DNA of 64,000 bases from Pseudobdellovibrionaceae bacterium (GTDB taxonomy: Bacteria; Bdellovibrionota; Bdellovibrionia; Bdellovibrionales; UBA1609), in assembly GCA_018663505.1 (NCBI GenBank), contig JABJQG010000025.1:1-64000 (forward strand), read 5' to 3'. Each line of letters opens with the position of its first letter. The stretch's first letter is position 1. Made by a program: the position numbers and the translations under genes. Below are positions 33,932 to 53,816 of the stretch, in pieces. The notes under the pieces were generated by a model. That model ran no database searches and was not told the origin of the DNA. It saw only the letters and a list, made by a program, of their open reading frames with translations.

Positions 33932-34717
33932 ATGGTTAAAAAAACAAGACAAATGCTGTTTAAGCAATTTTCAATTGTGTTCACACTATCAGTTGTGCTG
34001 TTTTTATTTCAGAACTGTGGAATGGTGAGGACTCCTCAGTCTTCCAACGGGGGGCTTTCCTCTGCTGGGTTTAATCACAAGGTGTTAACAGTAGATCAGC
34101 AATGCATGGTTTGCCATGAAGACGATCGACCAAACCTAGATCATTATGCAGGTCAGGATTGTTATGGTTGTCATAATACTACCATTTGGGCGGGTGGAGC
34201 TGGAGCAAGTCATAACCCGATCCCCGTAAGTTGTAACACATGTCACGCAAGTACAGGCACCACACCGGCCATTGATTTGAATACTCATATAGCTATTGAT
34301 GAAGCTACTCAAGATTGCATAGACTGTCACCAAGGGGCCGTTGCTAGCGGTTTTGTGAGTTGGGGTGGAGCTTTACCCACTGTGATCAATTTATTGGAAG
34401 TTACTGCGGGTGGAACTACCCGTCTTGGCATGGAGGTTCCTCACCCAAATAATACAAACTGCACCACGTGTCATGAGAGTAATCAGCCTCCGTTTGTGAA
34501 TAAAGCCAGAAGTTATGAGCACACGGGTGTAGAGGCTTGTGTATTATGTCATTTACCCGATAGCCCAAATATTTCTTCAGGTAGATTAACACAAGAGTCA
34601 ATGTCTGCAGGAGAGCACTCCTCATTTACAGATATTAGTACTCAAGACTGTACCACTTGTCATCGTGATGCGGGAACACAGAATTATAGAAATTGGGACG
34701 GCGGAAATAATCGTTAA
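33932..34717 (+). CDS. Heptaheme c-type cytochrome lipoprotein
   Basis: 261 residues from ATG 33932 (GGAG 7 nt upstream; GTG 33899 lacks one). Signal ends LFQNC-G, then MVRTPQS, almost the same as in the 19-heme protein at 47742 (QMRTPQA), followed by GFNHKVL. Seven CxxCH haem-binding sites: CMVCH, CYGCH, CNTCH, CIDCH, CTTCH, CVLCH, CTTCH, with extra His for distal ligation. A paralog of the N- and C-terminal parts of the 19-heme protein. Probably an electron-transfer lipoprotein at the outer membrane. Confidence 0.9.
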   Translation: MVKKTRQMLFKQFSIVFTLSVVLFLFQNCGMVRTPQSSNGGLSSAGFNHKVLTVDQQCMVCHEDDRPNLDHYAGQDCYGCHNTTIWAGGAGASHNPIPVSCNTCHASTGTTPAIDLNTHIAIDEATQDCIDCHQGAVASGFVSWGGALPTVINLLEVTAGGTTRLGMEVPHPNNTNCTTCHESNQPPFVNKARSYEHTGVEACVLCHLPDSPNISSGRLTQESMSAGEHSSFTDISTQDCTTCHRDAGTQNYRNWDGGNNR

Positions 34718-34735
34718 TTTAACATAATGGTATTT

Positions 34736-35266
34736 TTAAAGATTGTTGAAGTAATCCAACCAATACTTTGATGTCCAGTTTTCGAAACCGGAAGCTTTTT
34801 TAATAATTTTATTATTTTTAATAATAAAAGTTTCAGGGAGTTTTTTTACTAGAAGTTTATTAGTGGTTTCTTGGTTGGAATCCCAGACTATAAAGATATT
34901 AGGATCTTGAAATTTTTGTTTCTGCAGAAAACTTTGTAGGTCCTCTTTTTTGTCATCGCTAGAAATAGCCACAAGTTTGATATTGCCCTTATGCTGTTTA
35001 ACTAAATTGATTAAACTTGGGAATTCTTTAATACAAGGGGGGCACCATGAGGCCCAGAAGTTAAAGAGTATAATATTATCTTTAAATTCATTAAGTAAAA
35101 CAGGTTTGCCTTGGATGTCAGTGAACTTTAAAGGGGGGAGCTCTTGGAATGTTTGATCATGGGTTATAAGCTTCACTTGTTTGGAAACAAAGAACTCATC
35201 GATCACCATATAGGAAGCATAGGTACAAAGAATAACGATGAGTGCAGTGAGGATTTTAATTTTCAT
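34736..35266 (-). CDS. ResA/TlpA-like membrane-anchored thioredoxin
   Basis: 176 residues. An N-terminal anchor (about 4-20) is followed by a thioredoxin fold with W-C75-P-P-C78 in FNFWASWCPPCIKEFPSL, and a cis-Pro region LPETFII. ResA/TlpA proteins reduce the disulfide of apocytochrome CxxCH sites before haem attachment. It follows the 30-heme cytochrome gene by 73 nt on the same strand, and ResB-CcsA are nearby, which supports that role. SD AAAGG precedes ATG 35266. Confidence 0.88.
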   Translation of the reverse strand: MKIKILTALIVILCTYASYMVIDEFFVSKQVKLITHDQTFQELPPLKFTDIQGKPVLLNEFKDNIILFNFWASWCPPCIKEFPSLINLVKQHKGNIKLVAISSDDKKEDLQSFLQKQKFQDPNIFIVWDSNQETTNKLLVKKLPETFIIKNNKIIKKASGFENWTSKYWLDYFNNL

Positions 35267-35310
35267 AGTGGATTACCTTTGATAATATTTGAAATTTTTG
35301 TGTCTATGAC

Positions 35311-35337
35311 GCCGGGCATCCGCAAAAGATGCCTGGC
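35311..35337. repeat. Short REP-like hairpin R9 (second subfamily)
   Basis: GCCGGGCATC-cgcaaaa-GATGCCTGGC, one mismatch, followed by ACC. It shares the outer TGGCACC and inner GCATCCG segments with R10 rather than the CTTATGGGA stem. It sits immediately after the stop of the 30-heme gene. Confidence 0.65.
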
Positions 35338-35339
35338 AC

Positions 35340-37850
35340 CTAGAGTCCTAGGTCGAAGCTGAATTGGTTGTGGCATTGGCTGCAATCGTCGAAGGTGGCT
35401 CCTGTGTGGTCCCGGGGTTGAGCTACTCCGGATACACTGGCGCGGTCTGTGGCGTGACATTGGCTGCAATCAGCGGGGGTGCCCTCGTATTGATTGTTAT
35501 TTACATTACCACTGTTGGAGTTATGACACTGAAAGCAATCTAGCGTTCTGTGGGCTCCTCTTAGTGGGAAGAAAGTCATGGAATGCCTAAAACGAGTATG
35601 CTCCCAGAACTGTTGCCTGTGGCAATCATTGCAGTTAGGCAATGACCCACTATGGACGTCGTCTTTTTGATGACAGTAAATACAGTTTTCGCTGGTGCCA
35701 GAGAGTTTTTTGCCATTGTCATTATGGCATTCTGAGCATTCGGCAGTGTAATGTGCGCCATGCAAAGTAAAGTTTTTGTGAAAGTCTTTGGAGTATTTCC
35801 AAGATTTTTCTCTATGGCATTGAGCGCAGTTGATACCAAAGTCGCCCTTATGTTTATCGTCCTTTTTGTGGCAATTAATACACGTAGAGTCGATGGGAGT
35901 GTAATGTCTTACAGTGCGCCATTTAGGTTTTTTATTTCGTATGACCTTGGCCATCTTTTTTTGTGCCTTTTTATGACACTTATAACACTTAAGCTTCTTG
36001 TGTTTGCCCAGTAATTTATAGTCGCTGTCGCGGTTGTGCTGAAATTTAGTTCTATACCAAGTTTTTTCTGTATGACATTTTTTACAGCTAGTTTTTTTAA
36101 ATTGCCCTTTATGGAAATCGGAGTGACAGGTTGTACAGCTGTCGTCCTCTAGCTCTTCAAAAACATACTTGTGCCATTTTTTTGGCTTTTTCTTAGCTCT
36201 TGTACGGAAAGCTTTGGTACGTTTGTGGCATTCCACACATTTTAATTTTTTATGTGTGCTTTTTAGTTTAAAGGCTGTGTCGTTGTGATCAAAACGTTTT
36301 AGGTTTTTAAAATCAGAAGTGTTATGGCATTCAGCACAGGACTGGTTATTTTGTCTATCACTGAACTGATACTTGTGTGGGGTTTTATGACAATCCACAC
36401 AAAACTGCTTTTTAAAAGATTTAAACTTATAGATGCGATGTTGTCCTGAATTGTGACATTTTTTACATGTTAATTTTTTATGATCACCAGTTAATTTAAA
36501 ACGCGTTTTTCTATGATCAAAGTTTTTACCCGTACGTGGCTTTTTCAGCCAGCCTTCGGTGGTATGACATTGATCACATTTTTTAGTAAAAAACTGCCTG
36601 GAGGCTTTGCCCTTGCGTTTGTGTGGTGTTTTGTGGCAAGTAGCACAAGTTTTAGAGTTCAATCGTTTCCAATGATACTTTCTGTACTTAAAATTCTTTA
36701 TTTTACGGTGCTTGCGTATGGGAGTATGGCACTTGTTGCAATTTAATTTCTTATGTTTACCTGTGATAGGGTATTTGGTGTCTTTGTAATGGTCGAAGTC
36801 GTGAATCTCTTTCCATTTGTTTTCGTTATGGCAGTTTTCACATTTATTTAAATCGCCTAATTTTTTAGACAGTCTTGGGTAGTATTTGTGTGTGTCTTTG
36901 TGGCAGCTTAAACACTTGGTAGTTAAGCCAGCCCATTTGTAATGCTTTTTTGTTTTTTGTTTCAAGACCCTTTTGGGCTGTTTGTGACAATCTATGCACT
37001 TAGATTTGGCATGAGTACCCTTAAGTTCATACTTAGTGACCTTATGATCGAATTTTTTAATCTTCCAAGTATTGTTATTATGGCAATCATCACAACGGCC
37101 ATTCCTAAATTTTTTACTTAGGTTTTTCTTATGAGTATCTTTGTGACAGCTGAGGCAGCTTGTTTTTTTGAGATTGTGCCACTTGTATTTGGATAATTTT
37201 TTAACTTTATTGGTGATATGACATTCGTTACACTTTAGTTTCTCATGTTCACCCTTAAGGATATAGTCGGTGTCCTTATCATGGTTAAACGTAATGTCTT
37301 TATTCCACTTAGCTAGACCGTGACAGCTTCCGCAGTCCTTTTTCTTATACTCGTCTTTAAAGTAATGGATATCTTCTTTTTTATGGCATTCTTTACAGGA
37401 TGATGTAACACCAAGAAATCTTAAATCATTCTTTCTTAAATGTTTTTTTGTTCTTTTTTCTTTATGGCACTTTGCGCATTTTATATCCGAATGCTTGCCT
37501 TCCAGTTTGTAGCCAGTGAGGTCGTGGTCAAATGTCTTGAGATTAATCTCAGTGGAGTCGTAATCACGTTCTTTATGATCGGTGTGGCACTGGAAACAAT
37601 TTTTTGTTTGGGAGCCATGAAAGCTTTTTTTGTTATCTAAGGTTTTATCTATTTCCTTATGGCAATCTAGGCATTTTGAGTCAGGAACCCCTTCGCCGGC
37701 ATCATGACATTTTAAACAGTCTATTTTTTCTAGATCTTTGTGACCTTCTATAAGTGGGCCAGGGGCAAAGAGCTTATTTAACAAGGATTCTTTTTTTTGG
37801 CCAAAGGCAAACAAGGGAAGTATGGCTAAAGTGATTATAAATAATTTCAT
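35340..37850 (-). CDS. 30-heme c-type cytochrome, secreted, Lys-rich
   Basis: 836 residues with a signal peptide (MKLFIITLAILPLFAFG, then QKKE) and 30 CxxCH sites counted along the chain, from CLKCH near residue 45 to CSQCH near the end. Most of the protein is a repeated unit: FDH-x(4-6)-Y/F-x-L-x-G-x-H-x-x-L-x-C-x-x-CHK, then a Lys-rich spacer and one or two further CxxCH. The repeat His residues can supply the second haem ligand. The very basic spacers are notable. The start ATG overlaps the barrel-protein stop by one base (TAATG), so the two are coupled. It probably forms a periplasmic-to-outer electron wire. Confidence 0.92.
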   Translation of the reverse strand: MKLFIITLAILPLFAFGQKKESLLNKLFAPGPLIEGHKDLEKIDCLKCHDAGEGVPDSKCLDCHKEIDKTLDNKKSFHGSQTKNCFQCHTDHKERDYDSTEINLKTFDHDLTGYKLEGKHSDIKCAKCHKEKRTKKHLRKNDLRFLGVTSSCKECHKKEDIHYFKDEYKKKDCGSCHGLAKWNKDITFNHDKDTDYILKGEHEKLKCNECHITNKVKKLSKYKWHNLKKTSCLSCHKDTHKKNLSKKFRNGRCDDCHNNNTWKIKKFDHKVTKYELKGTHAKSKCIDCHKQPKRVLKQKTKKHYKWAGLTTKCLSCHKDTHKYYPRLSKKLGDLNKCENCHNENKWKEIHDFDHYKDTKYPITGKHKKLNCNKCHTPIRKHRKIKNFKYRKYHWKRLNSKTCATCHKTPHKRKGKASRQFFTKKCDQCHTTEGWLKKPRTGKNFDHRKTRFKLTGDHKKLTCKKCHNSGQHRIYKFKSFKKQFCVDCHKTPHKYQFSDRQNNQSCAECHNTSDFKNLKRFDHNDTAFKLKSTHKKLKCVECHKRTKAFRTRAKKKPKKWHKYVFEELEDDSCTTCHSDFHKGQFKKTSCKKCHTEKTWYRTKFQHNRDSDYKLLGKHKKLKCYKCHKKAQKKMAKVIRNKKPKWRTVRHYTPIDSTCINCHKKDDKHKGDFGINCAQCHREKSWKYSKDFHKNFTLHGAHYTAECSECHNDNGKKLSGTSENCIYCHQKDDVHSGSLPNCNDCHRQQFWEHTRFRHSMTFFPLRGAHRTLDCFQCHNSNSGNVNNNQYEGTPADCSQCHATDRASVSGVAQPRDHTGATFDDCSQCHNQFSFDLGL

Positions 37851-39169
37851 TATAAGCGTCCCCTTGGGGCGGCACCATCTCTCATGGGTGAGATTGATTT
37901 TGTGCCAAAGCGGTAAGAGAATTTAAAAAATGCTGTAGAAATATTTACTTTTTCGTCTTTAGCAGATTGAAGTGAAAGTGCGCCAAAGAGCTTTTTTGAA
38001 TACTGTTTGGATGCTGTGACTTCAATAATCACTGGATTTAATTTAGAGCCATCAGTTTGTGTTTCTTGACCTATGTCTAAGTTGATATCTAACTCCATTG
38101 TGCCGGAGTAATATCCAAAAGCAGAATAGAGGTAGGTGCCATTTTTAGTAAAATTTTGGGCAGACTTAAGGCCTGCAGAGGCGTCGAAGCGCTTTGATAT
38201 AATTCGCGGAAAGCGGGCTTTAAAGAATAACGTTGTACGTTTTTTGTTGTCAGTGGCACGTGTTCCTGAGCGTGCTTCTAGGGAAAGTTGGGCTTTTCGG
38301 TTGGCACGGTACTTTGCTTGTAGTTGAAACTCTTTATAAGGACTTGGTTCAAGAGTTTCGCGAATGTCTGCATTTCTGCGATACTCGATCACATCATAAA
38401 TTTTGTAAGCCGCGGACCCTCGCCAAAGTTTTGAAAACTTATCATGATAGGAGAGATAAGCATTTTGAATTTTGGCAGTGGGTACAAAGTCATAATAGAA
38501 CTGGCCAAAAAAATGTCTGTCTCTACGCCATTGATAACGTGTTTGATTGTATAAATAGGTACGGTCTACATCACCATCAAAGGTCTCTGTAACATAGGCA
38601 CTGGAGGTTTGGAAAACCTTAGACCAGCTGGAGCTTTGAGGCTCATAATAAAGGTAAGCACCATAAATATTCTTTTTGGAACTGAAGTCTAAGTATGATT
38701 TATCAGCAGTTTTGGGGTTTAGGCCGGCAAAAAATGAGGCTTTGTAGCCACTGCTAGTTTTATAACCAGCTTCAAAACCATCGGTAAAGGTGGAGCCCGC
38801 TTCTAAAAGGTGAAAACGACCGGCCTGCCAATGTATGCCTTTACGAGTATGGTTCCTGATGGAGAGGGTTCGTAACTGAAAATCATTTTTTGCACTTAAT
38901 TGTTGCAGTTCTGTGTCTAATTTATTAAAAAAATCATGTTTGTCTCGAAGATCGGTGGTTAACACTAGTTGGTGCTTTGTCCACTTTGAAGCTTGGTAAT
39001 ATAAACGGGTGGACAAGGTAGAAAAATTATTGGCAGTAGTGCCTTGTACCTCGGGTGGATGATCCTCTTTTGAGAGCAACCCTCCAAAGGTCACACGTCC
39101 GTGACTTGTTATGGCAAAAATGCTTTTTGAAAAGCAAATGATAAAAACAAATAAACTAACTAATTTCAT
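37850..39169 (-). CDS. Outer-membrane beta-barrel, candidate cytochrome conduit porin
   Basis: 439 residues. Signal peptide to about residue 19 (SKSIFA, then ITSHGRVTFGG). The chain is made of alternating aromatic/polar strands (STRLYYQAS, HWQAGRFHLL, YGAYLYYEPQ, FGQFYYDFVP, LFFKARFP, FKFSYRFG) with basic turns, as in 16- to 22-strand porins. No haem motif. Being coupled to the 30-heme cytochrome gene, it recalls porin-cytochrome complexes such as MtrAB, where a barrel sheathes the cytochrome; sequence homology to MtrB cannot be judged by eye. The 83-nt gap to divergent resB must hold both promoters. Confidence 0.75.
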   Translation of the reverse strand: MKLVSLFVFIICFSKSIFAITSHGRVTFGGLLSKEDHPPEVQGTTANNFSTLSTRLYYQASKWTKHQLVLTTDLRDKHDFFNKLDTELQQLSAKNDFQLRTLSIRNHTRKGIHWQAGRFHLLEAGSTFTDGFEAGYKTSSGYKASFFAGLNPKTADKSYLDFSSKKNIYGAYLYYEPQSSSWSKVFQTSSAYVTETFDGDVDRTYLYNQTRYQWRRDRHFFGQFYYDFVPTAKIQNAYLSYHDKFSKLWRGSAAYKIYDVIEYRRNADIRETLEPSPYKEFQLQAKYRANRKAQLSLEARSGTRATDNKKRTTLFFKARFPRIISKRFDASAGLKSAQNFTKNGTYLYSAFGYYSGTMELDINLDIGQETQTDGSKLNPVIIEVTASKQYSKKLFGALSLQSAKDEKVNISTAFFKFSYRFGTKSISPMRDGAAPRGRL

Positions 39170-39252
39170 AAAAAAACTTGAACCAACTTATCCTCGATGT
39201 AATCATGTTTGTTTATTAGAGAAAGCAAATGGGAAAGTGACAAGGTTTTTTA

Positions 39253-41091
39253 TTGAAATTAATTAAAAAAATTCAGAAAAATTATTTATTTAAGGTTTTT
39301 TCCTCTGTTAAGATGGCAGTATTTATCATGGTGCTCATTTTAATTGCAACTGCCATTGGAACAATTGTAGAAAGTCGCTATAATGCTGAGTTGGCATCAC
39401 TCTATATATATGCCGCACCTTGGTTTAATGCTCTGCTATTCTTGGTAGGGATATTAGTAATTAATGCCACAATAGCTCGGCTACCATGGAAAAAACGACA
39501 CACTGGCTTTTTAATCACCCACCTAGGTATTGTCACCTTGTTAATAGGAGCTTATATCACACAAAATTATGGAATAGATGGCATCTTACAAGTGGAAGAG
39601 GGGCGATCTGGGCAAAAAGTGTTTTTGTCAGAAAGGGTCTTTGAATACTCCAGTCATGTTGATTTCAAAAAAATATATGTGGAGAAAAAGCCGTACTCCT
39701 TTAACTTTTTTGACCTTCGAAGACTGAACCAGCAAATTTCTGATAATTATGAAATCATGGATTATAAGCCTTTTGTTGCGGAACAGGACCCCATGCTGTC
39801 GCAGATTCAAAATATAGACGGGTTTTTGTTACAGTTTAATATTAAATCCGCTTTTTTTGATCAAGATGTGTCTTTGCATAGTCGAATGCGAAGCGAATTA
39901 CAAATGGGACCTGCTGTATTTAAGGTGGTCACTGAAAAAGATCTGCTAAAGGACTCAACAAAAGATGGTTTAGTTAAAACTAAAAAGAAAGTTGCTAAAA
40001 AAAGTCTAAAAAAATCTAAAAAGAAAGCTAAACCTATTGTGCCTGGGCAAGCTCTACTTGAAATTTATAGTTTTAAAAGCAATAAGCTTCTTGCTACACT
40101 TAAAGTATCCCAGCTGTCTCAATCTAAAGCTTATGTTTTTAAGGGGATATCTTTACTGCTTAAACAGAAATTTAATCATGCCTCCATTGAGGCAAATAAA
40201 ATTGTTGAGGCCAACCCTAAGGGACCGGCCACTAACCCCGCATTAGAGTTGACTATATCTCAAGGCAAAGAGAGCTTGCGAGAAGTTATATATACTAAAT
40301 TTGATGGGTTTACTCTTAATGCTGAAGGTGCCTTTAATTACAAATTTAAATATAAATCTGATGTGGCAGAAACCCTAGCGCCAATAGTTACTCATAAAAA
40401 GCCAAAGATTAAGGCCACAAATGTGGTCCAGTTTGTGGTAGCGGCTGACCAGTCGTTAAAAGTACAATTTATTAAAAATAATAAAATTGAATCAGAAAAT
40501 AATGTGAAAGTTAATGAGGAAATATTAACACCATGGATGGGGATGAAGTTAAAGCTCAGTGCCTTTGTGGATTCTCAGAACATGCCATCAGCCATGGAAC
40601 CTAAAGCTATTGTGCCAAAAGTTAAAGAAGATATGACCCCTCCTTCGGCACTGCAAGTAAAGGTAAAGTCCTTAGGTAAAAAGCTGTGGATTACCGAAGG
40701 TCAGGTGAAATCATTAGGCCACGGAGACAGTGAAGTACAGTTTTTTTATGGCCGAAATTCCATAGACCTTCCCTTTAACTTGAACCTTAAGAAGTTCTAT
40801 AAGAAAGATTATCCGGGCACGGAAACGCCCATGAGCTTTGAATCGCACGTCACTATTGACGGTGGAAAAGAACAGCTTGTGATTTCCATGAACGAACCTA
40901 TGAAATTGCAAGGCTATACATTGTATCAGTCAAGTTACCAACTACGTCCTGGTGGTGGAGCCCTGTCAATATTTTCTGTGAACAGAGATCCCGGTCGTAG
41001 TTTAAAATATTTAGGTTCAGTAATTATGTCCATAGGGATTATTATAATCACTTTAATGAAAAGTCGTCTGTACAATAGACGAAAAGATTAA
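39253..41091 (+). CDS. resB: System II cytochrome c assembly protein ResB (CcsB/Ccs1-like)
   Basis: 612 residues from TTG 39253 (AAGG about 9 nt upstream). With CcsA it carries haem across the inner membrane and attaches it to apocytochromes. Three N-terminal membrane helices are visible (VKMAVFIMVLILIATAIGTIVES, PWFNALLFLVGILVINATIARL, GFLITHLGIVTLLIGAYIT) as in ResB, then a large periplasmic domain and a last helix (YLGSVIMSIGIIIITLM, about 583-600). The periplasmic domain has an extra Lys-rich insert (about 238-262). Six nucleotides and more of hairpin-rich sequence separate it from ccsA. Confidence 0.9.
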   Translation: MKLIKKIQKNYLFKVFSSVKMAVFIMVLILIATAIGTIVESRYNAELASLYIYAAPWFNALLFLVGILVINATIARLPWKKRHTGFLITHLGIVTLLIGAYITQNYGIDGILQVEEGRSGQKVFLSERVFEYSSHVDFKKIYVEKKPYSFNFFDLRRLNQQISDNYEIMDYKPFVAEQDPMLSQIQNIDGFLLQFNIKSAFFDQDVSLHSRMRSELQMGPAVFKVVTEKDLLKDSTKDGLVKTKKKVAKKSLKKSKKKAKPIVPGQALLEIYSFKSNKLLATLKVSQLSQSKAYVFKGISLLLKQKFNHASIEANKIVEANPKGPATNPALELTISQGKESLREVIYTKFDGFTLNAEGAFNYKFKYKSDVAETLAPIVTHKKPKIKATNVVQFVVAADQSLKVQFIKNNKIESENNVKVNEEILTPWMGMKLKLSAFVDSQNMPSAMEPKAIVPKVKEDMTPPSALQVKVKSLGKKLWITEGQVKSLGHGDSEVQFFYGRNSIDLPFNLNLKKFYKKDYPGTETPMSFESHVTIDGGKEQLVISMNEPMKLQGYTLYQSSYQLRPGGGALSIFSVNRDPGRSLKYLGSVIMSIGIIIITLMKSRLYNRRKD

Positions 41092-41155: not shown

Positions 41156-42787
41156 ATGTTGAAAAATTTGATACTTACTTTGTGTTTTATGTTGAGTTTA
41201 GGAGTTTGCGCTTTAGAGTCTCCAGAGGCTAACCTTAAGTCCAGTGCTGGTTTTGTGGATGTTAAAGAGGTGCGAAGTTTGATGGTTCAGGACCAGGGAA
41301 GGTTAAAGCCTTTTGATACTTTTACTCGTGAAGCCATCTTGTTTATTGCCGGTAAATACAGTTTGTTTAGTTTAAATGCAAATGAGCTTTATTTGTCTAT
41401 TATCGTTAATTCTCAACCAAAAAAATTGGAAATTGTAAATATTCGAAACACGGCATTGAGAGAACAATTGGGCTTTGCCAAAGATAAACAAAGGATGTCT
41501 ATTAATCAGCTAGATAAAACCAGTTTGTTTGCCATGGCTAAACCTCTTATTGAAAAAAGAGAAAAAAATAAACGCACCCTAGAGCCAGCTGAAAGAGATT
41601 TGTTGGAAGTTTACAGCCAGTATTGGTTTTTGAAAAATATTATTTCAGGAGACCATTTTTTCAGTGCAATTGATTTTTCTGGGTTATTAAATAAATCCCA
41701 TAGAGACACTAAGTCTAAAGTTATCTTTGCTGCTAATGAATATTTGAAAGCTTTAGCTCAAAAAAATCGAGAACAAAGTTTTGTGGCCTTAAAGTCATTA
41801 AAAGAAGAGGTTAAAGCTCAACCATTACCTGATTTGTTTAAACCCCATGTAGCACGTGTGCCGGTGGAAGTTTTATATAATCAATCAAAGATATTTTTAA
41901 TTTCGGCAATCTTAATTTTGTTATTTGGTATTAGTCTTTACTTTGAACCCATACAAAAACTCTTTCAAAAAAAGTTATTTAGATCTTTCTTTTTCTTACC
42001 CATTGTGTCCTTATCTGTGGGTTTTGCTTTAAGAGTATATATCACAGGCTTTGCCCCGGTGACCAATATGTATGGCACCATGCTTTGGGTGTCCTTGGGG
42101 ATTTTGCTGTTTAGCTTGTTTATGCTGTTTGCTTATAAGAACTTTAATGTTGTGGCCAGTTTGTGGGTAGCCAGTGGTTTAGTGATTTTGTTGACCGAAA
42201 GTATGCCCTTAATTTTAAGCCCTAATATGGACCCTGTGGTGGCTGTATTAAGAAGTAATCTTTGGCTAACAATTCATGTACTTACCATTGTTATATCTTA
42301 TGCTGCTTTTACTATTACTATGGTTTTAGGGAATATTGTTTTAATTAGGAATATCTTTAATTATGAAAATACCAAAGAAAATATCAAAGAGTACGCCAAG
42401 TATATTTATAGAATGACTCAGTTGGGAGCTTTTTTATTGGCTGTGGGCATAATTCTAGGTGGTGTTTGGGCGGATTATTCATGGGGAAGATTTTGGGGTT
42501 GGGACCCTAAGGAAACTTGGGCCCTTATTGCTAATTTGGGATACCTCATTATTTTACATGCTAAATATGCAGGTTGGTTAACACCCTTTGGATTGGCCGC
42601 CTCATCGGCAGTGGCTTATTTATTAGTGATTATGGCTTGGTATGGTGTGAACTTTATACTGGCTTCGGGTCTGCATTCCTACGGCTTCTCAAGTGGTGGC
42701 ACGGCTTTTGTTATGACTTTTGTGTTGTTTCAATTGGTTATTGTTGGGATCTCTTTGGCTGTAAGAGCTCAAAGGGCCAAGGCTTAG
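41156..42787 (+). CDS. ccsA: Cytochrome c haem-handling protein CcsA (ResC)
   Basis: 543 residues. An N-terminal signal/anchor and a periplasmic domain (to about 240) precede the CcsA membrane domain with about eight helices. The tryptophan-rich haem-binding loop is W447-G-W-D-P-K-E-T-W455, and the flanking conserved His are H374 (TIHVLT) and H507 (SGLHSYGFSSG). It delivers haem with ResB for the local multiheme cytochromes. SD AAGGAAA precedes ATG 41156. The long N-terminal periplasmic domain (containing RPLDTFxRE-like LKPFDTFTRE) is also found in some CcsA relatives. Confidence 0.94.
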   Translation: MLKNLILTLCFMLSLGVCALESPEANLKSSAGFVDVKEVRSLMVQDQGRLKPFDTFTREAILFIAGKYSLFSLNANELYLSIIVNSQPKKLEIVNIRNTALREQLGFAKDKQRMSINQLDKTSLFAMAKPLIEKREKNKRTLEPAERDLLEVYSQYWFLKNIISGDHFFSAIDFSGLLNKSHRDTKSKVIFAANEYLKALAQKNREQSFVALKSLKEEVKAQPLPDLFKPHVARVPVEVLYNQSKIFLISAILILLFGISLYFEPIQKLFQKKLFRSFFFLPIVSLSVGFALRVYITGFAPVTNMYGTMLWVSLGILLFSLFMLFAYKNFNVVASLWVASGLVILLTESMPLILSPNMDPVVAVLRSNLWLTIHVLTIVISYAAFTITMVLGNIVLIRNIFNYENTKENIKEYAKYIYRMTQLGAFLLAVGIILGGVWADYSWGRFWGWDPKETWALIANLGYLIILHAKYAGWLTPFGLAASSAVAYLLVIMAWYGVNFILASGLHSYGFSSGGTAFVMTFVLFQLVIVGISLAVRAQRAKA

Positions 42788-42874: not shown

Positions 42875-43429
42875 TTGAGCTTACCAGATTGGAAAACAGC
42901 TAGCGAAAAGGATGTGTGGGCCTACTTTGCCACGCAGGTGGCAGATACGGGTGCTGAAGTATTACTAATGGGTGAAACCATCGCTTCTATGTATTTAGAA
43001 AAGGTCTACCGATTTGATGGAATGGATTTTCATACAGAGTTTGGTACCGAGGTGGGGGTATTTAAAGATATTATGAAAGCCATGGGCTTTGAGCAAAACA
43101 AACAGGGTGGTTACGAACATCCCACGTATTGGAAATTAAGATTTAAGATATGCCCTCCTCCAGCCAGTTTTTCTAAGCAAGACAAAGAGTCTAAAATAGA
43201 GGGGAGTACACCTGGTGAACTCATTAAAATATATTGTCCCACTGATGCGGTTAAAGAACGATTAAATATGGCTATCCATTTAAATGCCTTTGAGTATGTT
43301 ACTCATGCTTCAAAAATTGCTAAAGCTCACCCCATAGACTTGGCACAAGTAAAAACATTTTGTGAAAAACAAGCAGCAATGGACATGTTTAACTTTTTTC
43401 TCAAAAAAGCAAATCTGCAAAAAAAATAA
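42875..43429 (+). CDS. Cytosolic protein of unknown function
   Basis: 184 residues from TTG 42875 with CAGGAG 8 nt upstream. No signal peptide or membrane helix. Mixed alpha/beta composition with a long amphipathic C-terminal helix (KTFCEKQAAMDMFNFFLKKA). I see a loose resemblance to minimal nucleotidyltransferase folds (EVLLMGETIASMY then charged strand) but no catalytic GS-x-D-xD motif, so no function is claimed. It follows ccsA by 87 nt on the same strand. Confidence 0.7.
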   Translation: MSLPDWKTASEKDVWAYFATQVADTGAEVLLMGETIASMYLEKVYRFDGMDFHTEFGTEVGVFKDIMKAMGFEQNKQGGYEHPTYWKLRFKICPPPASFSKQDKESKIEGSTPGELIKIYCPTDAVKERLNMAIHLNAFEYVTHASKIAKAHPIDLAQVKTFCEKQAAMDMFNFFLKKANLQKK

Positions 43430-45771: not shown

Positions 45772-47742
45772 CTATTTCCATCTACCACCAGATGCGCCCG
45801 TGGTATCATCCCAGCTTGGATATCTTAATGTCTCCTCTGTATTATTAGTCTGCCTACCGTTTGGGGCGTGACATGGAAAACAGTTTCCACCTCTTAGCCC
45901 TTCATGACCAGAGTTCTTCCTGTTTAACTCAAAACTGCCTCCAGAGTTTCTTCCAATATTAATACTAGTAGAACTATGACAAGTCACACAGTTGCTTAGA
46001 GAGCCTTGTGATTCTGTGGTTACACCATGATCATATGAAAAAGCTTTTACGCCTGGCTCAAAACTTTTATGACATAAGGTGCATTCGCCCTTCGTGGGGT
46101 GAGGCAAACTCACTGCCGCATATGTGTAGTTCCCATTGCTAAAACTCTCTAACTCCATTGTTTCCGGAGCTCCATTGGCTCCACGCCAACCGGTGAAAGC
46201 AGCTTGTGGTGGAGAAAGGTCATTTGCATTTGTCAAAGATGCAGAATGACAAGAGGAACATTGTGCTGTGGTCACTGCCGTGTGGTTTGTTTCGGCCGAA
46301 AGCTTACTGTTATATTTAATGCCTGAGCCTAAATTATGGCAACTGTTGCAGTTAGTAACACCAGATTTTATATGATCATAGGAATCGCTATTCGCTGCCC
46401 AGCTCCATGGCCCTGTATATGTGTTACTATTATTATCATGACAGTCTATACAGTCAGCACCACCAACAGTGGAGTGATCGTTAGGGTAGTTTCCAGGCCT
46501 ACTTGTTCCTGAGTGACAGTTATTGCAGCTTTGTGGGTTATTAGCTTGATGGTCATATGTAAATCCAGCCCAGGTTGTGTACGCTGGGTATGTCACAGAA
46601 TTGATTGTGGTTTCTGTTGTGGATTGACTGTGGCATTCAAGGCAATCAGAAGAACCAATGTCAGCATGATTTGCATTTACAAAAGAAGTACTGCGACTGT
46701 TTCCTTGTGCATGGCATTGGTTACAGCTTGTTAGGTTTGCAGTGGCGTGGTCAAATTCTCCATTCATCCAACTATTAAAAGGAGTGGGTGTTTCACTGAG
46801 GGTGGCACTGTGACAAGTAACACAATCTGAACTCCCTAAGTCTATATGTGATGGATTTATAACTGTAGAAACAGCATCGAAATCTTGGTTAGTATTATGA
46901 CAAGTGTTGCAGCTCTGAACATTAGAAGCTATGTGATTATAATCCCATCCTAACCAACTACTGTAAGCCACATTAGGTGTATTCGTTTGTGTGGCACTAT
47001 GACAGTCTACGCAGTCGGCTGTTGCACCAATAAATACATGGTTAGCAGGGAAGGCGTCTTTATCAGCACCATCGGAGTGACAACTGTTGCAGCTGGTAAC
47101 ACCCGCATCAGTATGGTTAAACATGGCCCCTGCCCAATTTGTATATTGAGAAATGGTTACAGTGTTCTGGTGACACTCGATACAGTCCTTACCCGTAGTG
47201 TCTATGTTAGTATGTTTAGGTTCGCCAGTAATTCTATCGTAAGTTTTTCCAGTATCGTGACAGCTGTTACAGCTAGTGGGATTGATTTGGTTGTGTGGAA
47301 AAATTCCGTTGGCCCAACTTTGAAAACCGTTGTTAATAGCAGATTGGTGACATTGAACACAATCATTGGTGCCATAATCTAAATGATTGACTGCAGAGAC
47401 ATGATCATAGTTAGCATCAACACCATGACAGTTATTACAACTATCAGGAACTGGTGAGTGAGAGGCTCCGCCAACGGCATCTTTCCATGTATATGTATTG
47501 TGACAGCCTTTACAATCTTCACCAGCAAAGTGATCAGACATAGCTCTATCCGCCTCATGACAAATACTACAGCTTTGACCATCCTTTAATACTAAGTGAT
47601 TGAATCCAAGACTGGCTAGGTTGTCCATGGCCTGAGGTGTTCTCATTTGCCCACAGTTTTGAAAAAACACAAAAAGGGCAATGAGTGAAAAGACCACTGA
47701 GAGTTTATTTATGAGTTGTTTAACATACGTAGCAAAATTCAA
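45772..47742 (-). CDS. 19-heme c-type cytochrome lipoprotein
   Basis: 656 residues from TTG 47742, chosen because AAGGAAGG lies 6 nt upstream (GTG 47766 has none). The signal peptide ends FFQNC-G, then QMRTPQA and GFNHLVL, matching the 7-heme protein at 33932. Nineteen CxxCH sites from CSICH to CFPCH. The body repeats a two-heme unit of about 60 residues: DCxxCH, x-SW-x(4-6)-H, then SCNxCH. Unlike the 30-heme protein it is Asn/Ser/Thr-rich and acidic. Likely an outer-membrane or extracellular electron carrier. Its transcript should begin near the 77-nt element at 48039-48115. Confidence 0.92.
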   Translation of the reverse strand: MNFATYVKQLINKLSVVFSLIALFVFFQNCGQMRTPQAMDNLASLGFNHLVLKDGQSCSICHEADRAMSDHFAGEDCKGCHNTYTWKDAVGGASHSPVPDSCNNCHGVDANYDHVSAVNHLDYGTNDCVQCHQSAINNGFQSWANGIFPHNQINPTSCNSCHDTGKTYDRITGEPKHTNIDTTGKDCIECHQNTVTISQYTNWAGAMFNHTDAGVTSCNSCHSDGADKDAFPANHVFIGATADCVDCHSATQTNTPNVAYSSWLGWDYNHIASNVQSCNTCHNTNQDFDAVSTVINPSHIDLGSSDCVTCHSATLSETPTPFNSWMNGEFDHATANLTSCNQCHAQGNSRSTSFVNANHADIGSSDCLECHSQSTTETTINSVTYPAYTTWAGFTYDHQANNPQSCNNCHSGTSRPGNYPNDHSTVGGADCIDCHDNNSNTYTGPWSWAANSDSYDHIKSGVTNCNSCHNLGSGIKYNSKLSAETNHTAVTTAQCSSCHSASLTNANDLSPPQAAFTGWRGANGAPETMELESFSNGNYTYAAVSLPHPTKGECTLCHKSFEPGVKAFSYDHGVTTESQGSLSNCVTCHSSTSINIGRNSGGSFELNRKNSGHEGLRGGNCFPCHAPNGRQTNNTEETLRYPSWDDTTGASGGRWK

Positions 47743-48038
47743 TTTAAACCTTCCTTTAACGAGCACAAAAAACTAGGCTTTGATCTGTATTGTTTAATTA
47801 TAAAAGAACTCCATCGGTAAACACAGAGAAATAATAAGTGTCCCAATGTCGATATTCTGGTCACTTTTAAATATAATAATAATTGCAACTAGATATAGGT
47901 CTGGCTTTTTTGCTTTTATTTTAAAAAAAACAACATTGTATCAAAGTGGAATGTCTCAATTTAATATGTATAAAAGTTTGATAGTTTTTTTTGCAGGAGA
48001 CAAGGGGGATTTGGGGTTCAGTATTTAGCATGAACAAT

Positions 48039-48388: not shown

Positions 48389-51300
48389 TTGAAATCATTT
48401 AAAATAACTAGTCAATTGTTGCTTTCTATATTTTTGCTCTTATTGATGGGTTGTGGTGGAGGAGGCTCTTCTACATCAAATGCCCCAATCATTGATGTTT
48501 ATGATAATGAGAGTTTTGTTAACAAACCTGCAGCTTATGCTATTGTTGGTGTGGCTTATGTTTATAGCCCAGTTCCTGTGGAAAAGTATTTTGATGCTGA
48601 TTATTCGGTGGAAAGCCTCACTGGAGTTACGGGCGGCAGCAAAACAGAAAAAGCAATATACTGGACACCTACAGCTGATGATGTGGGGGAAAGCCATATG
48701 CTTGAAGTACAGGTATTATCAGGAACAGAAAATTTAAATTTTAAATGGAGTGTGGAGGTGAAGCCACAAACTTCTTTACCAGTAAGTGCTGGTTTAATTT
48801 TTGATGCTGGCATTAACTTAAATGTAGATGAGTATGTACCTGGTTATAAACTTAATATTGGTGCTACGGATCAGTTTCCTGGGGTGAAGTTAAAATTAGG
48901 CATGGCGGATGTTGATTTGACCAATGATGCTTTTGCCGACGGAATAAAATCACCAGTTTTAATTCTTGATTTTGAGCAAGCTTTGAATCCGGAGGGTAAG
49001 ATTGTTGATATCACTGGAAAAAGTTTAAGCCTTGACGTGGCCATTAAAACCTATACCACAGAAAATCCATTTGGTCCTGCTGAACCATTGGCTGATGAAA
49101 AATATTTTCTAGCCATACAATCTATGGATAGTCTAGGGGCACCACCTGCCCCAGGCGAAGATGGCATAAATTTTATCCCATTAAAGTATAATGAAGGGGA
49201 GCTCAAGGCTTTTTTAACTCATACATTTAAAGATACCGCTATACCTGCTAGGCACAGATTTTTTATGGCTCAGCTCGTAAATTCTAAATATTTAAAAGTG
49301 GATTCTAGTGATGGTTTTTTTGAGTTTTTTTGGTTATTTGAATCTAACACGGACCCTGTGAAAAAAAAGCAATATGTATTGGATTTTATCGCTAAATCAG
49401 AAGGGTATTTTTCAACTTCTGCTGAAAAATTACTGGCCTTAGGCTGCAGTCGGCCAGGTGGTGTTACCAAAACACAAGTATTTATTAGCCCGCGCATTAA
49501 TACCTTTACACATATTTATAAAAATGAGGATCAGTTTACTGTACCCTATGTGACAATGTCGGACTGTAAAAAATGGTCTTACGGAACCCGTGATTGCTCT
49601 TTTCCTTATGTGGACGGTAAGGGAGAAGACGGAGCTGGAACGAGAGTGTGGAAACATGCCATTTCTCATGAATACTTTCATGTGGCACAGCTGCCAAATT
49701 CCAGGATAGGGCATATTTATAATAAAGATCCTAGAACCTGGCTTACAGAAAGTAGTGCAGAATTTGCTTCAGAGGAAATTTTTCCAACTCAGTCTTTTCT
49801 AGGCAAAGAATTTTCTTTTAAATATGAGTGGACAAATGAACTTGTACTCAGTGGACTCACATCAGTGGGAAGTGATTACAGGTCTTTATTTCCAGATTAC
49901 AGCCATAAAAATTATAAACTCAGTATGTTTTTTCAATATATTAAAAAGAAAAGAAATGGCGATTTAAATATCTGTAGTTTTATTAAAAGTGCAGAGTATC
50001 AAAATTTTGATGAACTCCACTATTTGCAATTAACTACATCTGATGAAAAACTGAAATACTTAAAACCACTTGACCGTTTACTTGGAGGCACAGGGACAGA
50101 GAGATTAGACGCCTTAAAAAAAGGCTATTCAAATTTTGTATTTGCCTATAACTTTCAAATACAGGAGCTTATACCACACATCGATAAAATCAGTAATTTT
50201 AATTTTTCAGGGTATTTAGATAAAATTTATCTTTCTAAAGAGGCACTTCCTTTTGAGAGTATTGTTTCGGAAAGCGTTTTTGGTGGCCAGTCCATCACTT
50301 TGATTTCAGATATTTCTCGATCGGTGGAAATAGACATAAAAGCAGAATTTGATGCCACTCTAATACCAAGTATAGGGTTTTATGCTGAATTATACCCTGT
50401 AGTAAAAAACTCATCTGGCGAGGTGCTAGCTTCGGAACCAGTAGCGGTTTTTGATGGTGCAAGCCCTAAAAAAACCATTGCGCTAGAGGCCAATCAGGAT
50501 TACGCATTGGTATTCATTCAGTCTAATTTTATTGCGCAACAAGATAATAAGCTATTAAATTTTAGTTACTCCATTGAAGAATCAAACGTTGGCATACCTT
50601 ATGTTTATAATTATTCGCTTTCAGAAGGGTACTCTCTAGGAAGTGATGAATTTGGAGCTAATCAGTTTAAAGCTTTCTCTACAGAGGCAGCATCTTATGT
50701 TATAGATGAGTTTAATATTACCTATGAGACAACCAATTTTTCTTGGAGTATTGATTTTAACTACTTAGTTGACCTCCGTTTCTACATATTTTTATGGGAT
50801 CATAGTTTCAAAACTAATTTTGAAGTTAGAATGGCAGCTAGTGAAGCCTTTGATGATACGCCTCCAGAGTTTTACCCAAGCGTTGATGACACTGTTAATT
50901 TAGAAAATGTAGAAAATAAAGTTATCTTTAATGAAGCAGCACTGCAGCCGGAACTCAGTTTATTTAATTTAGATATGACAAAATTCAATGAGCCAAGTAT
51001 TAATTTGACGAGAGAGGTTGTTGCACCCAACGACTTAACCCGGTTTGTGCGACGAAGCCAGGTACTGCTTCCTTCACAAAATAGCTCAACAAATCAGCTT
51101 TATAATGTCATATTATTTCCTATAGTGAAGTCTCGGACGGTTTGCAATAAAGCACAAATAGGTATGACGAGTGAAGAGTCCATTGCGTTTTGTAATAATT
51201 CTTGGTCTCGTCGCAATTTATCTTTAAATAGTTTTGAGACAAGTATAAATGAGGCTGTGGCCGTGGCAGAGGCAACTCAAGACACGAGTTTGTGGGACAT

Positions 51301-51439
51301 ACATTACGCGTATTATGTAGGGAATAAGTTGATTAATAAAGTATATAGGTTAAATACAGGTGTAAATTCAGTTTATGATGCCACCGGAGAAATAGGACCA
51401 TTTATTGAAATATATGCCATTATATTAAAAACAAACTAG
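48389..51439 (+). CDS. Large lipoprotein with gluzincin-type metallopeptidase motif
   Basis: 1016 residues from TTG 48389 (AAGGAG 6 nt upstream). Signal ending LMGC-GGGG. An N-terminal Ig-like region (about 35-130, with IYWTPTADDVGE typical of putative-Ig modules) is followed by a peptidase-like region with H427-E428-YF-H431 (ISHEYFHVAQ) and a downstream WLTE454-SSAEFA, the HExxH...E arrangement of gluzincins. The C-terminal about 450 residues look like beta-sandwich domains. Probably a surface or secreted protease. It is adjacent to, but divergent from, the 19-heme gene. Confidence 0.82.
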   Translation: MKSFKITSQLLLSIFLLLLMGCGGGGSSTSNAPIIDVYDNESFVNKPAAYAIVGVAYVYSPVPVEKYFDADYSVESLTGVTGGSKTEKAIYWTPTADDVGESHMLEVQVLSGTENLNFKWSVEVKPQTSLPVSAGLIFDAGINLNVDEYVPGYKLNIGATDQFPGVKLKLGMADVDLTNDAFADGIKSPVLILDFEQALNPEGKIVDITGKSLSLDVAIKTYTTENPFGPAEPLADEKYFLAIQSMDSLGAPPAPGEDGINFIPLKYNEGELKAFLTHTFKDTAIPARHRFFMAQLVNSKYLKVDSSDGFFEFFWLFESNTDPVKKKQYVLDFIAKSEGYFSTSAEKLLALGCSRPGGVTKTQVFISPRINTFTHIYKNEDQFTVPYVTMSDCKKWSYGTRDCSFPYVDGKGEDGAGTRVWKHAISHEYFHVAQLPNSRIGHIYNKDPRTWLTESSAEFASEEIFPTQSFLGKEFSFKYEWTNELVLSGLTSVGSDYRSLFPDYSHKNYKLSMFFQYIKKKRNGDLNICSFIKSAEYQNFDELHYLQLTTSDEKLKYLKPLDRLLGGTGTERLDALKKGYSNFVFAYNFQIQELIPHIDKISNFNFSGYLDKIYLSKEALPFESIVSESVFGGQSITLISDISRSVEIDIKAEFDATLIPSIGFYAELYPVVKNSSGEVLASEPVAVFDGASPKKTIALEANQDYALVFIQSNFIAQQDNKLLNFSYSIEESNVGIPYVYNYSLSEGYSLGSDEFGANQFKAFSTEAASYVIDEFNITYETTNFSWSIDFNYLVDLRFYIFLWDHSFKTNFEVRMAASEAFDDTPPEFYPSVDDTVNLENVENKVIFNEAALQPELSLFNLDMTKFNEPSINLTREVVAPNDLTRFVRRSQVLLPSQNSSTNQLYNVILFPIVKSRTVCNKAQIGMTSEESIAFCNNSWSRRNLSLNSFETSINEAVAVAEATQDTSLWDIHYAYYVGNKLINKVYRLNTGVNSVYDATGEIGPFIEIYAIILKTN

Positions 51440-51456
51440 AGCTCACTTCTAGTTTG
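51432..51456. terminator. Hairpin at the 3' end of the metallopeptidase gene
   Basis: CAAACTAGA-gctcact-TCTAGTTTG, a perfect 9-bp stem that includes the TAG stop codon. No strong T-run follows, so it may stabilise the mRNA rather than terminate alone. Confidence 0.45.
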
Positions 51457-51606
51457 CTGAAATATAATACCTAGCAAGACTTTAGTCCCCAATAGGTTTC
51501 AGCAAATAAATAGGCTTTTTGTCCATAAAATTAAAATAATATTATATGATATTTTTAACACTTACTAGTCATGTTAAGATTTATTGATCAGTGAGGATGC
51601 GTGTAT

Positions 51607-52953
51607 ATGGAAGCTGCTTTAGAATTTATTTCAAACTACTTAGATGTGATTACAATAGTTGTATTGTGCAGTGTTGCTTTTTTCTTTGTAAATAAGAAAA
51701 ATAAAAAACACCTTGAGGCAAAAAAGATATTACATAAAGCAGTTAAGTCAGGCACTGATGAGCCCATGACTTTACATCCAATTATTGATGTCACAAAATG
51801 CGCAGGTTGTGCTTCGTGTACTTTAGTTTGTCCAGAAGGTGGTATTTTAAAAATCATTCAACATAAGGCCGTTCTTGTTACTCCAGCAAAATGTGTGGGT
51901 CATGGGGAATGTGAAAGAGCCTGCCCTTACGGTGCTATTGATTTAGTTTTTGGTTCAAAACGCCGTGGTGTGGATATTCCTCGGGTGACTACTAACTATG
52001 AAACAAATGTACCAGGACTTTATATTGCCGGAGAGTTAGGTGGCATGGGGCTTATTAGAAATGCAATAAAACAAGGAACCTTAGCTGCAGAACATGCAGT
52101 AGCCGGTTTAAAAGGTAATAGCAGTAAAACAGACACTGATATCTTAATTATTGGTGCCGGACCAGCGGGATTAGGCTGTGGCCTTACAGCAATAAAAAAT
52201 AAAGTAAGTTATAAACTTATTGAACAGAATTCTTTTGGTGGCACTGTTTACAATTTTCCAAGACAGAAAGTAGTGATGACTCATCCCGCGGATGTTCCAG
52301 GTTACGGGCAAATGAAATTTGATAAAAACAAGGTGTCTAAAGAAGAACTTTTAGCCTATTGGAATGGTATTGTGAAAAAATCAGGATTAAAAATAGATGA
52401 AGGCATTTCTTTTGAAAACCTAGAGAAAGAAAATGATGTTTTTAAAGTAACCACAAAAGACGGCAAAGCTATTACTGCTAAAAAAGTTATATTATGCATG
52501 GGAGTACGGGGAAGTCCCAGAAAATTAGGTCTTGATAATGAAGATTTACCAAAAGTGGCATATAACCTTATAGATCCAGAACAGTACAAAGGGAAACATG
52601 TAGCCGTTGTGAGTGGAGGAAATGCTGGGGTGGAAGCCGCTCAAATGTTAGCCGAAGCTAAATATAAAAATACCGTTAATCTGCTAGTACGTGGTGATAT
52701 CATGGATAGATGTAATGATGACAATAAAGCCATTATAAATGCCATGGCAGATAAAGGCTTAGTCACAATAAGGTATAATACTGTAGTGAGTGAGATAGAA
52801 AAAGATACAATTGTTATTGATAACGAAGGAAATACAGAAAAAATAAATAATGATTTTATTTTTGTTTTTGCTGGAGCAATTATGCCTTATCAATTTTTAA
52901 TGAGTATTGGAATTGAAATTGACAAAGCCCACGGCGAGAAAAGGACAGACTAA
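51607..52953 (+). CDS. Membrane-anchored 2[4Fe-4S]/FAD pyridine-nucleotide oxidoreductase
   Basis: 448 residues from ATG 51607 (TGAGGA 9 nt upstream; GTG 51601 is too close). N-terminal membrane helix (about 10-28), then two ferredoxin motifs: C65-x2-C68-x2-C71-x3-C75-P, and a second with His in place of the second Cys, C96-x2-H99-x2-C102-x3-C106-P. Then the FAD Rossmann G183-x-G185-x2-G188 and an NAD(P) motif VSGGNAGVEA. No redox disulfide, so it is not a thioredoxin reductase. It probably passes electrons from NAD(P)H through FAD and Fe-S to the coupled cytochrome-b-like protein 5 nt downstream. Confidence 0.85.
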   Translation: MEAALEFISNYLDVITIVVLCSVAFFFVNKKNKKHLEAKKILHKAVKSGTDEPMTLHPIIDVTKCAGCASCTLVCPEGGILKIIQHKAVLVTPAKCVGHGECERACPYGAIDLVFGSKRRGVDIPRVTTNYETNVPGLYIAGELGGMGLIRNAIKQGTLAAEHAVAGLKGNSSKTDTDILIIGAGPAGLGCGLTAIKNKVSYKLIEQNSFGGTVYNFPRQKVVMTHPADVPGYGQMKFDKNKVSKEELLAYWNGIVKKSGLKIDEGISFENLEKENDVFKVTTKDGKAITAKKVILCMGVRGSPRKLGLDNEDLPKVAYNLIDPEQYKGKHVAVVSGGNAGVEAAQMLAEAKYKNTVNLLVRGDIMDRCNDDNKAIINAMADKGLVTIRYNTVVSEIEKDTIVIDNEGNTEKINNDFIFVFAGAIMPYQFLMSIGIEIDKAHGEKRTD

Positions 52954-52958
52954 TAATT

Positions 52959-53816
52959 ATGACATTTAAAAAATACACCCAACTATGGTTTATACTAACG
53001 CTAGTTATGGCAATTGAATATATAACTTTGAATTACAATCAAAGCTTCTCCATTTTATTTTTCTTAAAGTCCAATGTTGGAGCATTAGAAGATATGAATC
53101 TTTCTACAGCTGCTGGAAAGACTATAAGTATGTACCTTGGTGTTTCAGGTATGGTCGTTATGTTGGTGACTAATTTTTATATTTTAAGAAAACGCTGGTT
53201 TAGAATGCAGAAGATAGGAAAATTGCCTGGGTGGTTAAATTTTCATATTTTCTGTGGCATGTTTGGTCCATCATTAATACTGTTCCATACAGATATGAAG
53301 TTTGGAGGTTTGGTAGCCTTAAGCTTTTGGTCCATGATGATTGTGGCCTGGAGTGGAGTTATTGGGCGATATTTTTACATACAAGTACTCACAAAAAAAG
53401 GCGATGTTGTTCGAAGACTAGGAAAAATAGAAAAATTTCTAAAAGAGAAACTTGACGAAACAGAGGTTGAGGATAAAGAAGCTACCTTAGAAAAACTGAA
53501 AAGAAATTCAGTTAGCTTTGTGGGTGGAGATTCTAATACGGAGGACCTAGCCTTTGCTGCTTTGGTTGGAGTATTTTTGAAATCAATAATAGCGGATATT
53601 AAACTTTTATTTACCCGCCCAAAAAGCCTTCCAGGTCTCCATCCGGACATTGAGGAAGCCCTTTATCATTATGCTCTAACACTACGGAAAATAAACTATT
53701 TTTCCCCTTTTCAAAACTTATTGGGGTACTGGCATAGTTTTCATATCCCTTTTGCTGTGATTATGTATGTGGTGGCAGCCATACATATTGCAGTTGCACT
53801 TCTATTTCAAGTTTAG
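52959..53816 (+). CDS. Cytochrome-b-like membrane redox protein
   Basis: 285 residues with about five membrane helices: 8-25, 50-70, 90-108 (FHIFCGMFGPSLILFH), 118-135 and 250-272 (FHIPFAVIMYVVAAIHIAVAL). Candidate haem-b ligands are the His pairs in LNFH...LFHTD and WHSFHIP...AIH, an arrangement as in ferric-reductase-like or diheme b anchors. A charged cytosolic loop (about 145-215) could dock the Fe-S/FAD partner encoded 5 nt upstream. It may pass electrons toward the periplasm for the multiheme cytochromes. Family assignment by topology only. Confidence 0.7.
   Translation: MTFKKYTQLWFILTLVMAIEYITLNYNQSFSILFFLKSNVGALEDMNLSTAAGKTISMYLGVSGMVVMLVTNFYILRKRWFRMQKIGKLPGWLNFHIFCGMFGPSLILFHTDMKFGGLVALSFWSMMIVAWSGVIGRYFYIQVLTKKGDVVRRLGKIEKFLKEKLDETEVEDKEATLEKLKRNSVSFVGGDSNTEDLAFAALVGVFLKSIIADIKLLFTRPKSLPGLHPDIEEALYHYALTLRKINYFSPFQNLLGYWHSFHIPFAVIMYVVAAIHIAVALLFQV

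Follow-up and report, generated by a model that had tools for sequence, protein, structure and literature searches.

The putative porin-cytochrome type PCC3 is defined by four components: a porin, an extracellular multihaem cytochrome, a periplasmic multihaem cytochrome and an inner-membrane protein (IMP; main text of He et al. 2017, PMC5566968). The same text describes the PCC3 IMP as a protein of ~300 amino acids with five transmembrane helices that carries SGXXG and two WX3HX13H motifs, a signature published for PCC3 and PCC4 IMPs, and gives a PCC3 range of 22-39 residues per haem and porins of up to 42 strands. In the Gallionellaceae, PCC3 periplasmic cytochromes contain 21, 24 or 27 haems (PMC10734462). 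Here, we analyse a 64,000-nucleotide stretch of a Pseudobdellovibrionaceae genome from the phylum Bdellovibrionota (contig JABJQG010000025.1, positions 1 to 64,000; hereafter the window), where a gene cluster encodes three multihaem cytochromes, a predicted outer-membrane barrel, haem-assembly proteins and two putative inner-membrane electron carriers (Table 1). We consider it very likely that this module is a porin-cytochrome conduit of the PCC3 type, and that it represents a Bdellovibrionota branch of that type with a small barrel.

The core genes of the module are inherited together. Across a near set of 59 genomes, comprising the source genome and 58 relatives, the barrel occurred in five (G000, G004, G018, G024 and G026), and the 30-haem cytochrome, hereafter the wire (E<=1e-30), the ferredoxin-FAD protein (E<=1e-60) and an intact b-type membrane protein occurred in exactly the same five. 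These four genes were either all present or all absent, with joint absence from 54 of the 59. A survey of 369 phylum genomes with a barrel profile found the family in 29, spread over 28 genera and 7 families. Of 28 phylum loci, 25 have the wire gene directly beside the barrel gene and in the same orientation, the other three lying at contig ends or having a partial barrel match. Further partners recurred in these 28 loci, namely the ferredoxin-FAD protein (20), another multihaem cytochrome (20), the b-type protein (18), ResB and CcsB (13 each) and TlpA (8, close to the wire in L032, L034, L065-L067, L075, L078 and L079); given the short contigs, all these counts are lower bounds. The genes of the module are conserved in synteny across the 7 families. 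A first-pass annotation of the window, made without database searches, had coupled the barrel to the 30-haem cytochrome and proposed related genomes as the place to look for conserved gene order; the relatives bear out that coupling, and the genes are not scattered among them. Chance clustering is rejected. A sixth genome of the near set, G035, has neither barrel, wire nor ferredoxin-FAD protein and retains fragments of the b-type gene (C37:3183-3562) and an orphan ResB/CcsB on C64 (L035:6602-10091) that is close to the module-associated lineage described below; these remnants look like a decaying module.

The b-type protein carries the published IMP signature. A motif scan identified W92-x3-H96-x13-H110, S132GVIG136 and W258-x3-H262-x13-H276, and the four histidines H96, H110, H262 and H276 are invariant in an alignment of 35 homologues from several phyla. 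Its AlphaFold2 model is all-helical (pLDDT 93.4) and compatible with five helices, though the hydropathy peaks are indistinct. The protein has no family match in Pfam or NCBIfam, and because a Foldseek search with the model gave no meaningful match (best E 0.5), its fold family is assigned on the motifs. Scanning a genome collection with the wire alignment recovered loci in Bdellovibrionota, Nitrospinota, Nitrospirota, Myxococcota and Pseudomonadota. The Gallionella, Methylotenera and Aquabacterium loci among them, from groups with published PCC3 systems, contain homologues of the wire and IMP genes, and most of them a ferredoxin-FAD gene as well. In a tree of IMPs the Bdellovibrionota proteins form a single group (100/100) that is distinct from two others, one mainly proteobacterial and one of a Nitrospirota/Myxococcota type; three of the 14 rows in the Bdellovibrionota group are labelled as other phyla, two of these being genomes counted within the phylum in the 369-genome survey. 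On this sequence evidence the module is very probably a member of PCC3. The conduit proposed by the first-pass annotation is thus supported by co-inheritance, synteny and the IMP signature, but the idea is not new, because the module corresponds to the published putative type (PMC5566968). What is apparently new is a Bdellovibrionota branch of PCC3 with a small barrel, and our text searches of the open-licence literature found no report of PCC3 in this phylum. The same annotation had remarked that extracellular electron transfer is not a textbook trait of Bdellovibrionota, a statement now qualified by a 2026 report of MtrAB genes in other, magnetotactic members of the phylum (PMC13200544).

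The wire cytochrome has a signal peptide and no lipobox. Across 13 homologues (44-54% identity), all of its 30 haem motifs and 29 histidines outside the motifs are either invariant or show conservation of at least 90%; the motifs are therefore not a product of chance, and the additional histidines would suffice to give nearly every haem bis-histidine ligation. Spacings between the haems repeat with a period of three (lag-3 autocorrelation 0.56, shuffle p ~0.0005). Complete homologues within the phylum contain 21, 24, 27, 30 or 33 haems, once those cut by contig ends or split over two frames are left out, and the haems missing from shorter wires, mapped onto the 30-haem protein, fall mostly in contiguous blocks of three. 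Haem gain and loss therefore proceed by triheme units. In relatives from Nitrospirota, Nitrospinota and Myxococcota the multiple of three often holds only if CX3-4CH motifs are included, exceptions exist, and some wires exceed 40 haems. Two further wire-type cytochromes, with 64 CXXCH motifs (L108:9893-14482) and at least 51 (L111:10001-13488), lie beside a PCC3-type inner-membrane gene. Of the three window cytochromes, the wire is rich in basic residues (189 Lys+Arg versus 92 acidic) and the other two are acidic. By sequence the wire matched no solved structure at 1e-5, and in the NCBIfam scan it did not match the nanowire_3heme model. A wire built from triheme units may act as a modular ruler of 21-33 haems, and this would make the spanning of the periplasm by one polypeptide testable by relating haem number to periplasm width.

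AlphaFold2 predicts that the protein encoded next to the wire folds into 22 strands (pLDDT 85.3), in agreement, as a prediction, with the beta-barrel called in the first-pass annotation. The barrel had no family match in Pfam or NCBIfam, its profile matched no solved chain at E<=1, and Foldseek returned generic barrels only (TM to query <=0.47, ~10% identity). The profile does match, at 99.7%, the small barrels that lie beside wire cytochromes in other phyla, and this intermediate family in turn matches proteobacterial PCC3 porins at 95.6%. That the barrel might align with an unrelated nutrient porin had been raised as a check on the conduit idea; no such alignment was found, and this identity is rejected on the lack of any match in Pfam or NCBIfam or, by profile, to a solved chain, on the merely generic fold matches and on the match to wire-associated barrels.

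The 19- and 7-haem proteins both carry an FQNCG lipobox-like Cys after the signal sequence and match surface-type cytochromes of other loci. We regard them, from these sequence features, as probable surface (extracellular) lipoproteins, and by sequence the 7-haem protein is a paralogue of the 19-haem protein. In other loci their counterparts range from 7 to 42 haems, and most have a Cys at the corresponding position. As a lipobox variant, FQNCG stands at the ends of signal sequences at window positions 34007-34020, 47651-47664 and 375-388, and a genome-wide count of the corresponding DNA pattern gives 15 occurrences, as against four for a reversed control.

Open reading frames were called by six-frame translation, CXXCH motifs were counted per frame and families were assigned with Pfam and NCBIfam. 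The likely start of the 7-haem protein is an in-frame ATG within its reading frame. The three CXXCH-rich proteins of the first-pass annotation, with 7, 30 and 19 sites, were recovered with exactly these counts, and TlpA, ResB, CcsA/CcsB, the ferredoxin-FAD protein and the b-type membrane protein were found where it had placed them. All 56 motifs are plain CXXCH, CXXCK and CX3-4CH variants being absent from all three window cytochromes.

Table 1. Features of the candidate PCC3-type module in the window (positions in the window; strand + or -).
Feature	Position	Strand	Details
7-haem cytochrome, candidate surface lipoprotein	33899-34717	+	272 aa, 7 CXXCH; likely start 33932
TlpA/ResA-like periplasmic thioredoxin	34736-35266	-	AhpC-TSA/Redoxin above Pfam cut-offs
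30-haem wire cytochrome	35340-37850	-	836 aa, 30 CXXCH; Cytochrome_C7 / Cytochrom_c3_2 Pfam matches
Predicted outer-membrane barrel (small PCC3-like porin)	37850-39169	-	439 aa; AlphaFold2 model; directly adjoins wire gene
ResB, System II cytochrome c synthase subunit	39253-41091	+	PF05140, 81 bits vs cut-off 24.6
CcsB/CcsA haem-handling subunit	41156-42787	+	PF01578, 91.9 bits vs cut-off 29.9
19-haem cytochrome, candidate surface lipoprotein	45772-47766	-	664 aa, 19 CXXCH
Ferredoxin-FAD protein, membrane-anchored 2x[4Fe-4S] + FAD/NAD(P) oxidoreductase	51601-52953	+	Pfam
Di-haem b-type inner-membrane protein (PCC3 IMP)	52959-53816	+	Motif scan, alignment, AlphaFold2

An N-terminal membrane segment is predicted for the ferredoxin-FAD protein, which carries two cluster motifs, C-x2-C-x2-C-x3-C followed by C98-x2-H101-x2-C104-x3-C108, the second being of a Cys3His type; the cluster Cys and His residues are 100% conserved in 20 homologues. 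The form CxGHGxCxxxC, with His for the second Cys in the second cluster, recurs in 37 of 38 PCC3-linked flavoproteins from several phyla (L091-L166). In one locus the ferredoxin, FAD and b-type domains are fused in a single 959-aa protein (L133:3936-6815), and ferredoxin domains are joined to a b-type domain in three more (L135:7717-9894, L139:7384-9897 and L164:863-3028), although fusions in the GC-rich loci of this group could be frame artefacts. Because these fusions join the domains, they support the ferredoxin-FAD protein as the electron partner of the b-type cytochrome. Such a coupling had been suggested earlier, and both proteins occur in the same five genomes. Relative to published PCC3 systems, the constant presence of this ferredoxin-FAD partner, whose second cluster is of the Cys3His type, is apparently new.

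The window ResB and CcsB/CcsA, both above their Pfam cut-offs, are by sequence System II cytochrome c synthase subunits, though the window CcsB misses the NCBIfam CcsB equivalog cut-off (130 versus 187.6 bits). CcsB is found in 58 of the 59 near-set genomes, and the source genome has two, that of the window and a housekeeping copy (G000:C24:117089). In a tree of 35 CcsB proteins, a 100/100 branch separates 21 housekeeping copies from those associated with the module and from the G035 orphan, which falls on the module side. Rejection of the window genes as a mere housekeeping copy follows from this second, separate lineage. The housekeeping ResB/CcsB (L036:7666-16000) lies beside a five-haem cytochrome and molybdopterin-like, Fe-S and NrfD-like subunits whose best matches are to Qrc menaquinone reductase, probably an alternative complex III. 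The module's TlpA thioredoxin probably keeps apocytochrome cysteines reduced. Among the 18 barrel-positive genomes tested outside the window's family, 11 have a full-length CcsB of the associated type (438-547 bits, other copies scoring <=315), and three of these 11 carry it on a different contig from the barrel. The suggestion that the conduit brings its own assembly machinery is therefore upheld by the separate second copy, but only for this part of the genomes. Special-purpose haem lyases are known to serve the unusual motifs CXXCK and CX15CH (PMC12285233); because the window motifs are all plain CXXCH, such specificity does not explain the extra synthase. In proteobacterial PCC3 loci, CcmF lies nearby in L121, L145, L150 and L157, and a similar-sized protein with a weak CcsB score takes its position in L149 and L154. 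All six genomes have two CcmF genes each; of six further proteobacterial PCC3 genomes, a second CcmF is present in one, the remaining five having a single gene. The words biogenesis and CcmF are not applied to PCC3 in the main texts, as searched, of He et al. 2017 (PMC5566968) and two later papers. A module-associated, phylogenetically separate ResB/CcsB, paralleled by extra CcmF in some proteobacterial PCC3 loci, is apparently new.

We are now able to propose how such a module might work. At the inner membrane, the ferredoxin-FAD protein, on the cytosolic side, and the di-haem cytochrome b would exchange electrons, which a single 30-haem polypeptide of triheme units would convey over the periplasm and through the 22-strand outer-membrane barrel. 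The 19- and 7-haem surface lipoproteins would pass electrons to, or accept them from, an extracellular partner, and the additional ResB/CcsB haem synthase and TlpA thioredoxin would mature the haem-dense apocytochromes. Gene content, co-inheritance, synteny, the PCC3 IMP signature, triheme modularity and the separate synthase lineage are sequence-based elements of this model; wire-barrel docking, surface exposure, specificity of the synthase for the wire, conduction, its direction (export or uptake) and the partner are parts that we infer. More tentatively, it is possible that extreme haem density makes PCC3 conduits need a synthase of their own, met independently by ResB/CcsB in Bdellovibrionota and by extra CcmF plus a thioredoxin in some Pseudomonadota, and that the constant Cys3His ferredoxin-FAD protein is an unlisted cytosolic port through which NAD(P)H or ferredoxin, and not only quinones, would be linked to the wire.

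Several observations weigh against the assignment to a PCC3 conduit. PCC3 itself is a predicted conduit type of unproven function, and both PCC3 clusters of Sideroxydans ES-1 decrease on Fe(II) (PMC8788666), whereas in strain CL21 one PCC3 inner-membrane gene is up when cells oxidise iron. The window barrel matches proteobacterial PCC3 porins weakly, at 83% directly (a single control porin gave 0.2%), and is much smaller, at 439 aa against 722-865 aa in the loci aligned; its homology to the founding PCC3 porins is the weakest link in the assignment. Seven of the 18 barrel-positive genomes show no full-length extra CcsB; in one of these seven, whose completeness is only 57%, a partial copy lies where a contig ends.

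The alternative that fares best retains a conduit and changes its purpose, with electrons exchanged not with minerals or electrodes but with a specific soluble or membrane-bound partner, such as another cell, prey, or sulphur or organic redox compounds. We judge this unlikely. In its favour, predators occur among the Bdellovibrionota, the module varies in its surface-type cytochrome and PCC3 of ES-1 is not induced by Fe(II); against it, the named carriers derive from metagenomes of groundwater, lakes and other environments. An electron store is considerably less probable. Geobacter triheme-domain cytochromes such as GSU1996 have been interpreted as charge stores (PMC10138318), and the wire's Cytochrome_C7 match would fit a periplasmic capacitor of this kind with the barrel as an unrelated porin, but the pairing of barrel and wire as same-strand neighbours, their joint absence from most near-set genomes and the surface-type lipoprotein cytochrome carried by most loci argue against it. 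For a conduit of the Mtr/Pio type (MtrAB), its MtrA enlarged, one could cite MtrAB in magnetotactic Bdellovibrionota and a sub-threshold match of the wire to the DmsE/MtrA decahaem model (91.4 bits, cut-off 192.2), but this reading is most improbable given 30 haems instead of 10, a barrel that matches no Pfam or NCBIfam family and, by profile, no solved chain at E<=1, and an IMP signature of the PCC3/PCC4 type. A PCC3-type conduit is thus our preferred reading.

The proteins interspersed with the module in the window (42875-43429, 43919-45727 and 48389-51439) are excluded as module parts because they have no homologue in other module loci. A three-gene set around a TIGR02147/DUF4423 protein adjoins the module here (31778-33841) and in a second genome (L068:324-4868), and may be a regulator or merely a family common in the phylum. 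Just downstream of the module lies a gene for a 1701-aa protein with many cadherin-like/Ig-like repeats (54441-59546). Genes for CYTH-like, DUF4956, arylsulfotransferase-like and VTC-domain proteins at 27181-31527 suggest a polyphosphate-related cluster. Elsewhere in the source genome, for which checks were made as individual searches, Cytochrome_C554 gave no match and the haem-copper oxidase family is represented by three genes, so that O2 or NO respiration is likely.

The implications concern both the phylum and the conduit type. A predicted type so far described in Pseudomonadota would be extended to Bdellovibrionota, many of which are predators and of which seven families carry the module as a set of genes inherited together. 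Two candidate components would be added to the published four-gene definition, namely the ferredoxin-FAD protein, which could show the entry or exit point of electrons in metabolism, and an additional synthase associated with cytochromes whose motifs are all plain CXXCH.

Finally, the module can be set against the systems it most resembles. With PCC3 it shares a porin gene adjoining a periplasmic cytochrome of very many haems in multiples of three, an IMP of ~300 aa with the exact signature, and haem densities inside the published range (27.9 residues per haem in the wire, 34.9 in the 19-haem protein and 38.9 in the 7-haem protein); the 19- and 7-haem proteins, as probable surface lipoproteins, would correspond to the high-haem extracellular cytochrome of PCC3. 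It differs in its phylum, its small barrel of 22 predicted strands, its gene order, and the presence of System II ResB/CcsB with TlpA and of a ferredoxin-FAD partner, none of which belongs to the four-gene definition of PCC3 (PMC5566968). MtrCAB, MtoAB and PioAB follow the same logic of a barrel with an inserted cytochrome, but have 10 haems and a different barrel family, and the window proteins score below their curated cut-offs. Geobacter triheme nanowire cytochromes, GSU1996 and others, likewise form linear arrays of triheme domains, whereas GSU1996 has 12 haems and is described as a periplasmic charge store (PMC10138318). In Wolinella NrfI, CcsA1 and E. coli NrfEFG, an extra System II or System I copy is similarly tied to a particular cytochrome; those copies serve CXXCK or CX15CH motifs, whereas the window synthase sits with plain CXXCH only (PMC12285233).

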